Source: Erysipelotrichaceae bacterium (GTDB taxonomy: Bacteria > Bacillota_I > Bacilli_A > Erysipelotrichales > Erysipelotrichaceae). From it: a stretch of 64,000 nt of DNA. The number at the start of each line of letters is the position of its first letter. Within the stretch, counting starts at the first letter, position 1. The position numbers and the translations under genes are program-made. The notes below the pieces were generated by a model. The model was not told the DNA's origin. It saw only the letters and a list, made by a program, of their open reading frames with translations, and did no database searches. Shown here piece by piece: positions 3,781 through 60,676 of this stretch. The DNA is taken from the NCBI GenBank assembly GCA_030694975.1, contig JAUYTU010000010.1, positions 1 through 64,000 on the forward strand. Reading direction: 5' to 3'.

Positions 3781-4030
3781 AAAAACTATCCCTCAAAAAG
3801 AGGCGATAGTCTCGCGGTTCCACTCTTGTTTTAACCAAGTCAAACTTGGTTCTCTTTAGGTACAATCATACCTTAACGCTATAACAGGCGTACCTGAATC
3901 AGTCTACATATCGACCGATTTGCTCCAAGATGCATTCGCAATGCTTTCACCAAAGACTTTTTCACCATGTAAGTCTCTCTCTGATAGTTTCCGCAATGTT
4001 ACTATTTCTTATCATAGCATTACATTCACA
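3781..4030 (-). promoter_or_regulatory. T-box riboswitch with cysteine (UGC) specifier
   Basis: The leader carries the T-box sequence GAGTGGAACCGCGA (about 3825-3811), a Stem I with AGAGAGA, and a terminator hairpin ACTATCGCCTC/GAGGGATAGT with a U-run (3810-3781). The specifier is read from GAA-TGC-ATCTTGGAG, which aligns with CAA-CTC-GCCTTGGAG in the leuS leader of this window. UGC is a cysteine codon. Uncharged tRNA-Cys would stabilise the antiterminator and switch on the methionine-to-cysteine operon. Confidence 0.88.
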
Positions 4031-13258: not shown

Positions 13259-13287
13259 TTGGCAATTTTTGAAATTTGTGCTATAAT
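13259..13287 (+). promoter_or_regulatory. Promoter of the CNNM leader transcript
   Basis: TTGGCA (13259-13264), a 17-base spacer and a perfect TATAAT (13282-13287). Transcription would start near 13294, giving a leader of about 190 bases before the transporter ATG. Confidence 0.75.
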
Positions 13288-13320
13288 TTGACTGTTAAAA
13301 ACAAAGAGGTAATTTGAACC

Positions 13321-13479
13321 ATGAATGATGACCCCGGGGACGAGGATAGTAACAAAAAAGTAATCAACGATTTTTTCATATCCAGCCATACCGAGTTCCA
13401 TATCAAAAACAAATATCCAAGCATGAATCAAGGGCATCATCTGCCCTTTTTGTCATTGAATAAAAGGCAGGGAGAATAG
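13321..13479 (+). CDS. Candidate 52-residue leader ORF with acidic, proline-containing start
   Basis: Preceded by AAAGAGGT, 10 bases before the ATG, this frame begins MNDDPGDEDSNKK. It runs through the intrinsic terminator and stops 2 bases before the ATG of the CNNM transporter. Acidic and proline-rich N termini destabilise ribosomes at low Mg2+ (known for the MgtL leader peptide), and the downstream gene belongs to a Mg2+ transporter family. The body has no recognised domain. A second frame from the ATG at 13325 gives a 12-codon peptide (MMTPGTRIVTKK), but its distance from the ribosome site is longer. Translation of either is inferred. Confidence 0.5.
   Translation: MNDDPGDEDSNKKVINDFFISSHTEFHIKNKYPSMNQGHHLPFLSLNKRQGE
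13430..13451 (+). terminator. Intrinsic terminator inside the CNNM leader
   Basis: AAGGGCA-TCATC-TGCCCTT followed by TTT lies inside the leader ORF and 30 bases before the transporter start. The upstream GATGACCC (13327-13334) can pair with GGG..TCATC of the ascending arm, an alternative fold that would open the hairpin. This is the arrangement of an attenuator. Confidence 0.65.
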
Positions 13480-13481
13480 TA

Positions 13482-14801
13482 ATGGAAATCTTATTTTTAG
13501 TAATTCTGACATCGGTGAATGCGTTCTTGTCAGCAGCAGAAATCGCTCTGATATCACTCAACGATAACAAAATCAAAGTCATGGCAGAGGACGGACACAA
13601 AAAGGCCCGTCAACTGTTGAAACTGCTGGGCGAGCCCAGCCGTTTTCTGGCAACCATCCAAATCGGCATCACGTTGGCCGGCTTTTTAGCCAGTGCCTTT
13701 GCGGCCGATACCTTCGCAGAACCTCTGGTTGCCTTAATCAAACAAACCAATGTTCAACTATCGGACAGTTTCCTTCGAATTGTAACCGTATTTATGATTA
13801 CCTTGGTTTTATCTTACTTTACGCTGGTCTTCGGTGAGTTGGTGCCAAAGCGCATCGCCATGACCAAGGCAGAGCCGGTCGCTTTTGCGGTGGTACCCGC
13901 CTTGTTGGTTCTTTCAACCATTACCTACCCTTTTGTAAAGTTGCTTACCTTTTCAACCAATGTTATTGTAAGTATGTTTGGTATTGACCCCCATGCTTCC
14001 CAAGGCAATGTCACAGAGGAAGAAATTCGGATGATGGTGGATGTCGGTGAGGAAAAAGGAACGATTCAGCAACGCGAGAAAATGATGATCAACAACATCT
14101 TTGAGTTCAATAACAAAGAAGCGGAAGACATCATGACCCATCGCATGGAGCTGTTCAGTTTACCGGTATCCGCAAGTCTGGATGACATCGTTGAAATGAT
14201 TCATCAGGAAAAATTCACGCGAATCCCCGTATTTGAGGATAATATCGATGATATTATCGGTATCTTGCACGTAAAAGACCTGATACCGCTGATCAACACC
14301 AAAAGCGTTGAAAGTTTCTCACTGAAGGACAACATCCGAAAACCTTACTTCGTACCGACGTCTAAGAAAATTGATGAATTGTTTGTTGATTTACAGTTGG
14401 CTAAAACGCATATTGCCATCGTTATTGATGAATACGGCGGTACTGCCGGGATTGTAACTATCGAAGATTTGGTTGAGGAAATCGTTGGTAACATCTTTGA
14501 TGAATATGATGAAGAGTTAGTCGATTTCAAAAAGCTGACCGATGATACCTATGAGGTCAGCGGTATGATGAATCTTGAAGAATTGGAGGAGCGCTTTGAA
14601 GTTGGCTTTCCAACGGATGAATATGAAACGTTAAGCGGATTTATGATTAGTCTTATCGGAAAAATTCCTGAATCGGATGATGTCAGTGAAGTCATCTTCA
14701 GAAATCTGCATTTCAAAATCGCGCAAGTTACGGAAAAGCGCATCGAAAAAGTCATACTTACAGTCTTGCCTACCCTTGAAAATGAGGATGACGAGGACTA
14801 G
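13482..14801 (+). CDS. CNNM/CorC/HlyC-family membrane ion transporter
   Basis: A 439-residue protein: an N-terminal CNNM transmembrane domain (SAAEIALISL, VFGELVPKRIAM), two CBS domains from about residue 200 (IMTHRMELFSLPV, FTRIPVFEDNIDDIIG) and a C-terminal CorC_HlyC domain. Relatives include Mg2+ exporters such as MpfA of Staphylococcus aureus and YhdP of B. subtilis, and proteins linked to Mg2+/Co2+ handling. GGGAGA precedes the ATG. Its expression probably depends on the structured leader with a small ORF and terminator. It has a paralogue at 16.7-18.0 kb on the opposite strand. Confidence 0.87.
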   Translation: MEILFLVILTSVNAFLSAAEIALISLNDNKIKVMAEDGHKKARQLLKLLGEPSRFLATIQIGITLAGFLASAFAADTFAEPLVALIKQTNVQLSDSFLRIVTVFMITLVLSYFTLVFGELVPKRIAMTKAEPVAFAVVPALLVLSTITYPFVKLLTFSTNVIVSMFGIDPHASQGNVTEEEIRMMVDVGEEKGTIQQREKMMINNIFEFNNKEAEDIMTHRMELFSLPVSASLDDIVEMIHQEKFTRIPVFEDNIDDIIGILHVKDLIPLINTKSVESFSLKDNIRKPYFVPTSKKIDELFVDLQLAKTHIAIVIDEYGGTAGIVTIEDLVEEIVGNIFDEYDEELVDFKKLTDDTYEVSGMMNLEELEERFEVGFPTDEYETLSGFMISLIGKIPESDDVSEVIFRNLHFKIAQVTEKRIEKVILTVLPTLENEDDED

Positions 14802-16721: not shown

Positions 16722-17969
16722 TTAAAACGAATTGTCTCGGGTCAGCTCATTGACGGTCACTTGGATTTTTTTAGCCATCCAATCTTCGACTTCAATAATT
16801 TCAACCGTCAGATTCTCAAATTCGAACACATCGCCAGCCATCGGCCAACGACCCAATTGTCTGATTACCCAGCCATTGACCGTTGCTACATCTGAATCTT
16901 GGTCCTTATCTAAGAGTCTGAAAAATTTCTCAATGCTGGCACTGCCATACGTAAGAAATACATTCTCCTTGATTTTCTCAAATTCCTGAATGATTTCGTC
17001 ATGCTCATCCCAGATCTCACCGACGATTTCTTCGACGATATCCTCCAACGTTACGATACCCATCGTACCGCCATGCTCATCCGTTACCACCGCAAGATGA
17101 CATTTATTTTCTTGTAAAAGATGGAGCAATCGCGAAATTCTTTGCTTATCACTTGTATGCAAGACTGGCTTAACGAAGGTGGATGGTTGGTCCGAGGTTC
17201 GAAGGAAAAAATCTTTAAGATGAATCACACCGATGATGTTATCAAAAGAATCCCGATACACCGGAAGTCTTGAATAGCCGCTCTCAACAAACAGTTTATG
17301 TATACTTTCAATCGATTCATCCTCCGATACCGCAGATAAATCGATTCGAGGAGTCAATACATCCGCCACATTTAAATCATTGAACTCGATGGCATTGCGA
17401 ATCAGTTCTCCTTCATGTTTCTCAAGTTCACCATCTCTGGCTGCCTCATTGACCATCGTGATGAGCTCTTCTTCGGTAATTCCCCTGCTCTTTTTGAATT
17501 TAACGACCTTGGTAAGAACTATTTTCCAGAGCGAGAAAAAATAATTCAGAGGTGTCAAAAGAATAGTAAAGAATTTCAATAGTGATGCGGATGACATCGC
17601 AAAGCTTTCAGGCGCTTCTTTTGCCAAACTTTTCGGTGTTATCTCACCAAAAATCAACACCAAAACTGTCATTACAATCGCCGATATAGTTACCCCGGCA
17701 TTGCCGAAATATCGAACGAAAATGACGGTGGATAAAGATGCGGATGCAATGTTTACAATGTTATTACCAATCAATATGGTAGAGAGAACTTTGTCATAAT
17801 TGCCCACGAGTTCTAATACGAGTGCTGCTTTTTTGTTGCCATTGCTCGCCATACTTTTCAGTCGGATTCTGTTGATTGCCGAAAAGGCTGTTTCAGTTGC
17901 TGAAAAGTAGGCAGACATCATAATTAAAACGCCCAGGATTAATATTAATTTGAAACTATCCGCGTTCAT
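16722..17969 (-). CDS. Second CNNM/CorC/HlyC-family membrane protein
   Basis: A 415-residue protein with the same architecture as the CNNM protein at 13.5 kb: N-terminal CNNM domain (SATETAFSAIN, FGEITPKSLAKEAPE), CBS pair (VLTPRIDLSAVSED, SRLPVYRDSFDNIIGVIHL) and CorC_HlyC domain. The two diverge clearly and are probably functional specialists rather than a recent duplication. AAAGGGG precedes the ATG. Unlike the first copy, no leader ORF or terminator stands in front of it. The 3' flank (16607-16721) shows no gene. Confidence 0.85.
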   Translation of the reverse strand: MNADSFKLILILGVLIMMSAYFSATETAFSAINRIRLKSMASNGNKKAALVLELVGNYDKVLSTILIGNNIVNIASASLSTVIFVRYFGNAGVTISAIVMTVLVLIFGEITPKSLAKEAPESFAMSSASLLKFFTILLTPLNYFFSLWKIVLTKVVKFKKSRGITEEELITMVNEAARDGELEKHEGELIRNAIEFNDLNVADVLTPRIDLSAVSEDESIESIHKLFVESGYSRLPVYRDSFDNIIGVIHLKDFFLRTSDQPSTFVKPVLHTSDKQRISRLLHLLQENKCHLAVVTDEHGGTMGIVTLEDIVEEIVGEIWDEHDEIIQEFEKIKENVFLTYGSASIEKFFRLLDKDQDSDVATVNGWVIRQLGRWPMAGDVFEFENLTVEIIEVEDWMAKKIQVTVNELTRDNSF

Positions 17970-60471: not shown

Positions 60472-60660
60472 AAAAACGCCCTCTAAGGGCGTAATAACGC
60501 GGTACCACCTTAGTTACTGCTGTGCAGCACTCAAACCGTTAACGCCGAACTACGGAATATGTTTTGCATATTCAACTCCAAGGCGAGTTGGGATGGGCGA
60601 CCTGTCGTTTTGCACCGGACAACGACTCTCTGGTTGGCAAACCATCTTACTATTCCTTTT
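60472..60660 (-). promoter_or_regulatory. T-box riboswitch with leucine (CUC) specifier
   Basis: The T-box sequence AAGGTGGTACCGCG (about 60511-60498) is followed by the terminator hairpin ACGCCC/GGGCGT with a U-run (60493-60472). Stem I has AGAGAG. The specifier is CTC in CAA-CTC-GCCTTGGAG, in the same sequence frame as the UGC of the mcc leader in this window. Uncharged tRNA-Leu should raise leuS expression. Confidence 0.9.
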
Positions 60661-60676
60661 CAAAGCTTATGGGAAT

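Follow-up and report, generated by a model that had tools for sequence, protein, structure and literature searches.

One branch of the CNNM transporters in Bacillota is preceded by a short leader open reading frame with an acidic, proline-containing start, which suggests that ribosome drop-off at low Mg2+ serves as the sensor that holds an exporter off. The case from which we start lies in a 64,000-nucleotide stretch of DNA from an Erysipelotrichaceae bacterium ("the window"), and for it we think it probable that the leader is a cis-acting leader-peptide switch, the CNNM gene being expressed only if ribosomes pass the acidic/proline start and finish the leader. With a little less confidence we regard such leaders as a family widespread in Bacillota, in which the acidic/proline head and a stop codon within an intrinsic terminator would together turn a Mg2+ exporter ON at high Mg2+, with the ribosome as sensor and with a polarity opposite to that of MgtL; the type from Clostridia and Paenibacillus adds a conserved [FY]YxRP-stop end, at whose stop codon the ribosome may be held. 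The drop-off principle is already known from MgtL and MgtQ, and what we hold on balance to be new is a CNNM leader with the opposite polarity.

Mg2+ riboswitches govern uptake. By what means Gram-positive bacteria detect an excess of Mg2+ and switch on its efflux is, to our knowledge, poorly understood. If our reading is true, the ribosome would be the Mg2+ sensor and its failure would keep the exporter off, a compact and testable answer. Control by ribosome destabilisation would then be widened from enterobacterial importers to exporters of Bacillota, and terminator-arm stop, hairpin read-through, start-codon overlap and perhaps fusion to the transporter would form a natural design series with one logic.

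The leader and the gene behind it

The features of the window that are needed in the following are:

13259..13287, + strand: sigma-70-type promoter, TTGGCA-17-TATAAT, with an extended -10 (TG); the genus relatives have the same promoter core ahead of the leader
13294..13481, + strand: 188-nt RNA leader ahead of the CNNM gene, its start (~13294) placed from the promoter
13303..13310, + strand: Shine-Dalgarno-like AAAGAGGT, serving the leader ORF
13321..13479, + strand: leader ORF of 52 codons, MNDDPGDEDSNKKVINDFF...NKRQGE-stop, with ATG at 13321 and TAG at 13477-13479
13321..13347, + strand: acidic/proline head (MNDDPGDED), presumed to sense by ribosome drop-off, conserved in the genus and with heads of the same type across Bacillota
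13430..13451, + strand: terminator-like GGGCA...TGCCC hairpin with T-run, within the leader ORF; stem invariant and loop variable in five genomes
13477..13484, + strand: junction of leader TAG, 2 nt and CNNM ATG, the presumed coupling site; stop and start overlap in relatives
13482..14801, + strand: the regulated gene, a CNNM/CorB-type cation transporter of 439 amino acids (CNNM-CBS-CBS-CorC_HlyC by domain search)

The promoter is near-consensus and is the top-scoring site in the region: the -35 element TTGGCA (13259-13264) and the -10 element TATAAT (13282-13287), separated by 17 nt and supplemented by the extended TG, together give 11 of 12 matches. Translated in full, the leader ORF reads MNDDPGDEDSNKKVINDFFISSHTEFHIKNKYPSMNQGHHLPFLSLNKRQGE. 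No other short ORF preceded by a Shine-Dalgarno sequence in the 64-kb window matches its N terminus in acidity and proline, and the motif ATGRAYGAYGAYCCNGG occurs only once in the window's own genome, at the leader. As is characteristic of leaders that act by intrinsic ribosome destabilisation, the frame has its own ribosome site and its first ~10 codons include acidic and proline codons (MNDDPGDED with its Shine-Dalgarno sequence). Within the head (13321-13347) the stretch CCCCGGGG is self-complementary.

The hairpin AAGGGCATCATCTGCCCTT occupies 13430-13448 and is followed by T-rich sequence; with its T-run it can be written GGGCATCATCTGCCC-TTTTT, part of 13430-13451. The calculated dG of its core is -6.7 kcal/mol, and judged by its sequence it is a modest or weak terminator. 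In the genus of the window the stem is short and the T-run is interrupted, and the hairpin may therefore be a poor terminator or may act chiefly on translation. The layout described in the earlier note, consisting of promoter, Shine-Dalgarno sequence, 52-codon frame, hairpin and stop/ATG, proved correct in all coordinates that were checked.

The leader does not resemble a known riboswitch. None of the Rfam families matched it at gathering score, the matches below threshold being at chance level, and a covariance-model search found the Mg2+ riboswitch M-box (ykoK) neither in the leader nor in the window's genome. The known Mg2+/Mn2+ riboswitches (M-box and yybP-ykoY) were therefore rejected as the identity of the leader, since no Rfam covariance model for them matched; likewise, 18 loci from relatives, including those suspected of carrying yybP-ykoY, showed no riboswitch at the Rfam gathering score. 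Elsewhere in the window two T-box leaders exceed the gathering score, at 3796-4024 and 60482-60672, both on the minus strand.

The protein has the CNNM transmembrane domain, the CBS pair and the CorC_HlyC domain and thus belongs to the CNNM/CorB family. A second CNNM-CBS-CorC gene of the window (16722-17969, minus strand) is 34% identical to the first, and no acidic leader was found ahead of it.

Conservation in the genus and distribution in Bacillota

Among 60 related genomes that were searched, four from the genus of the window have orthologs that are 85-90% identical; all four are MAGs labelled Erysipelotrichaceae or 'Firmicutes HGW'. All four relatives with an ortholog keep the leader, with zero indels, and in all four the promoter, the Shine-Dalgarno sequence, the leader frame, the hairpin and the stop/ATG junction recur. 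The distance from the leader ATG to the gene ATG is 161 nt in all five members, and in every one the end of the leader meets the start of the gene, by overlap of stop and start or, in the window, by TAG plus 2 nt.

Within the leader, the head and the body have evolved differently. In the first 27 nt 96% of the nucleotides are invariant among the five genomes and there is no synonymous change, whereas the synonymous sites of the CNNM gene differ at 62% in the same comparison. It may be added that conservation of the synonymous sites in the head (13321-13347) goes beyond what sensing by the protein alone would need. The body shows dN/dS of ~1.2-2 in the genus and hence no constraint at the protein level, which counters the idea of a small functional protein (dN/dS ~1 or more), and beyond codon 9 the ORF looks like a passive open frame. 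Nevertheless, this frame stays open in five of five members despite the drift. A simple model, in which the four relatives count as independent and undergo an equal amount of random substitution, gives a chance of ~1% that the frame would be open in all of them. A conserved head with a drifting but open body is as expected if the head is the sensor and the body merely needs a ribosome reading it. That the leader is translated we infer from its Shine-Dalgarno sequence, its head, the lack of indels and the fact that the frame is open.

The earlier note had predicted that the acidic/proline start, the terminator and their spacing would be conserved ahead of orthologous CNNM genes; this is strongly borne out, and well beyond the genus. 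With a strict rule (Shine-Dalgarno match of at least 4, net acidity of at least 3 in residues 2-9, position within 300 nt of the gene) an acidic leader was found ahead of 25 of 80 CNNM relatives in public genomes versus 1.1 expected from dinucleotide shuffles; control gene starts of the same loci gave 12 of 344 by the same rule, several of these lying inside the 3' end of the upstream gene. In the Acetivibrio order 12 of 29 CNNM genes have such a leader, and with seven further MDD-type leaders just below the cut-off, recognised by eye (L142-L145, L152-L154), the count becomes 19 of 29. In Paenibacillaceae, seven of 12 close homologs have the leader and none of 18 distant paralogs. After pooling and de-duplication, a leader precedes 42 of the 111 CNNM genes with at least 50% identity versus 1.15 expected from shuffles, the pooled loci being phylogenetically non-independent, and none of the 37 genes below 50% identity (0/18 at 40-50%, 0/19 below 40%).

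On the CNNM tree the leader label needs 15 changes as compared to 43 in a shuffle, a clustering to which near-copies contribute. Judged from this distribution, the leader appears to be mostly inherited, with losses especially in Bacillaceae, most of whose orthologs are without one. Heads can be near-identical between families, for example MNDDPGDEDSN in the window and MDDDPGDEDSN in L148. The Bacillus leaders MENTEEL... (L102, L105) met the strict rule and yet look like chance.

When 18 whole genomes were searched for a Shine-Dalgarno sequence, a start codon and D-D-x-P, 25 matches in 12 genomes were obtained, nine of which are short leaders immediately ahead of CNNM. In one case, in L127, a second CNNM protein begins in this way (MDDNPLLW...), and the others are within longer frames or are short frames due to chance, with no sensible gene behind them. 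When MDDxP leaders were sought with a strict degenerate DNA pattern in 392 genomes of the window's phylum, there were zero matches; these genomes are mostly small-genome Bacilli and thus little informative. In the open-access papers searched, a leader of CNNM genes in Bacillota is nowhere described, and a survey of premature terminators mentions neither magnesium nor hemolysin in its text (PMC2965389).

Short ORFs are common, and the whole leader of the window folds no better than shuffled sequences (z = 0.76), so that a random frame lying across a terminator has to be thought of. Such a chance origin is highly improbable: it is refuted for the family by the count of 42 in 111 and by the position of the stop codon in the hairpin in 27 of 27 leaders (see below), and for the window by the conservation in the genus.

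Two further observations concern the sequences upstream of CNNM. In L012, L013, L017 and L021 there is a conserved stretch with AAAAGGGAGTAGTTAGCATC at its start and ~ATATGAAATAACGAGACTTTTATTG at its end, which has no Rfam match at the gathering threshold and may be another cis element. The leaders of L007, L008 and L023, from the window's bacterial family, have in common a D-[PL]-x-x-R-x-C(C)-like core (MTETSDPLSRLCNRR, MSDSSDLSRSCCW, MSSTEDPGRSCCG).

Leader geometry and the direction of the proposed switch

The consensus of the family is M-D-D-x-P-[GED]-[DE] ... [FY]-Y-x-R-[PL]-stop, as derived from 41 leaders whose stop codon comes ahead of the gene; their selection made use of the acidity of the head, and neither of the tail nor of the geometry. 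In the head, the two aspartates are present in 34 and 36, the proline in 32 and the final [DE] in 32 of the 41. In the tail, an aromatic residue [FY] is found at -5 in 32/41, arginine at -2 in 33/41 and a final proline in 21/41. Twenty-seven leaders have a terminator of -8 kcal/mol or better, so that the family has one feature of transcription attenuators, a conserved terminator between the leader start and the gene. In all 27 the stop codon is within the terminator hairpin, in 22 of them 5-9 nt into the 5' arm, from which it follows that a ribosome reaching the stop must cover the arm.

Unlike this terminator-arm stop type, the leader frame in the genus of the window runs through the hairpin to the start of the gene. 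A third layout (L006/L058, L007, L008, L041/L068, L049 and L062) is without a hairpin, the end of the leader overlapping or adjoining the start of the gene. All layouts imply one rule, namely that a finished leader would turn the transporter on and early drop-off would turn it off.

For the window the proposed sequence of events is as follows. Ribosomes would initiate at 13321 and synthesise MNDDPGDED, a nascent chain of the type that causes dissociation at low Mg2+ (intrinsic ribosome destabilisation as in MgtL and MgtQ). At low Mg2+, drop-off would allow the hairpin at 13430-13451 to form, transcription would stop and the CNNM start would not be reached. At sufficient or high Mg2+, ribosomes would read through the hairpin, keeping it open, and would terminate at a distance of 2 nt from the ATG of CNNM, at which they could re-start. 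The gene would then be ON at high Mg2+, fitting an exporter of the MpfA/CorB type. Whereas the parts, their conservation, their specificity and their geometry can be read from the sequences, leader translation, drop-off, the Mg2+ signal, the efficiency of termination and Mg2+ export are what we infer. The polarity results from the analogy with drop-off at low Mg2+ taken together with the geometry, and it has the correct sign for an exporter.

The earlier note had left open two branches. The one for an exporter, in which full translation opens the terminator and turns the gene on, is favoured by every architecture seen. The one for an importer, in which drop-off exposes GATGACCC to pair with the terminator arm, fails because the pairing is not conserved: in L034, the most divergent member of the genus, it is broken (GGGCAGA versus GGGCATC) with the hairpin kept, and this antiterminator was therefore rejected. 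A second hairpin sequestering the ribosome site of CNNM (TGCCC/GGCAGGG) is feasible in four members of the genus and not in L034, and it is therefore not claimed.

The unconstrained body, and the leaders that just overlap the gene start without a hairpin, would also be compatible with plain translational coupling or attenuation without any sensing, the acidic start having another cause. This we consider improbable, because the acidic/proline head is the one part kept across families of Bacillota and random starts would not yield D-D-x-P. Also rather improbable, if slightly less so, is that the leader end is the main switch and the acidic head secondary, a [FY]-Y-x-R-P-stop chain holding the ribosome at the stop in the terminator arm as in TnaC. 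The counts for Arg, Pro and the aromatic residue in the separate-type leaders and the location of the stop 5-9 nt into the hairpin agree with this, as does the stalling of TnaC at its final proline codon with UGA in the A site (PMC8092293). However, the 5' terminator arm (AGGCC...) extends over the final codons, and this by itself favours Arg-Pro; moreover, the leaders of the window's genus and those of the overlap type are without such an end and yet have kept the head.

Some more distant CNNM proteins (L009, L014, L016, L018, L019, L181, L182) themselves begin with an acidic/proline stretch (MDDPQGSS, MDAGPESS, MDIDPDLF, MDVDPEPS, MDADPESS, MDDGSSVI and MEDGSSVL). These starts fused to the transporter are possibly the same control built into the gene. 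Membrane topology, with the acidic N terminus outside, could explain them as well, and they are not counted as evidence.

The signal, and comparison with known systems

The signal need not be Mg2+. With the same leader and the same on/off logic, drop-off could be set by polyamines or by the general state of translation (bL31, ABC-F or EF-P factors, temperature, salt), and the CNNM protein could export polyamines like PaeA, or another cation. Foremost among the rival signals are polyamines, since they also support ribosomes and since PaeA has an identical CNNM-CBS-CorC architecture. PaeA exports cadaverine and putrescine (PMC12421838). The NCBIfam score for the polyamine exporter PaeA is 223 bits versus 149 for CorC, all scores being under the curated cut-offs, and the same kind of drop-off is modulated by EttA and L31 (PMC11282234, PMC8092293). 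On the other hand, the closest solved structure by sequence is that of archaeal CorB (7m1u/7m1t), and CorB homologs and MpfA have been tied to Mg2+ efflux or tolerance (PMC12421838). We regard a signal other than Mg2+ as unlikely, though the least unlikely of the alternatives.

MgtL, the leader of mgtA in Salmonella and E. coli, is like the CNNM leader short with an acidic/proline start, and it precedes a Mg2+ transport gene; at its EPDP motif ribosomes drop off at low Mg2+ (PMC11282234). MgtL, however, serves an importer, involves Rho and turns the gene ON upon drop-off, whereas the CNNM leader is predicted to work by an intrinsic terminator or translational coupling and to turn the gene OFF. 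That drop-off raises expression, the hallmark of the MgtL type, is the opposite of what the geometry predicts (stop in the arm, or read-through). The drop-off mechanism may be the same; no sequence relation between the two is apparent, and we do not file the CNNM leader as an MgtL homolog. MgtQ, which precedes mgtB in Salmonella, is likewise an acidic short ORF, whose acidic codons destabilise ribosomes as those of MgtL do and which is associated with alternative structures (PMC8092293). It differs from the CNNM leader in having only 8 amino acids, in being purely translational and in controlling an importer that is ON at low Mg2+.

TnaC of the tna operon resembles the CNNM leaders in its Pro-stop end and in antitermination for as long as the ribosome stays, but it responds to tryptophan and involves Rho, whereas the CNNM leaders have an intrinsic terminator with the stop inside its arm. 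The M-box (ykoK) is an example of cis control of Mg2+ transport in Bacillota; it is an RNA aptamer rather than a leader peptide.

CorC (YbeX) and YoaL/mgpA (yoaE) represent efflux-side genes with CorC domains that are thought to be raised at high Mg2+ (PMC12421838). E. coli CorC has a destabilising sequence at its own N terminus and has been proposed to rise with Mg2+, and the start of the YoaL leader is required for translation of MgpA (PMC12421838). Both differ from the CNNM leader in being enterobacterial and in having no terminator described, and CorC in addition by the location of the destabilising sequence within its coding region. It is this CorC case that some Erysipelotrichales CNNM proteins, those starting with MDDPQGSS or MDADPESS, resemble.
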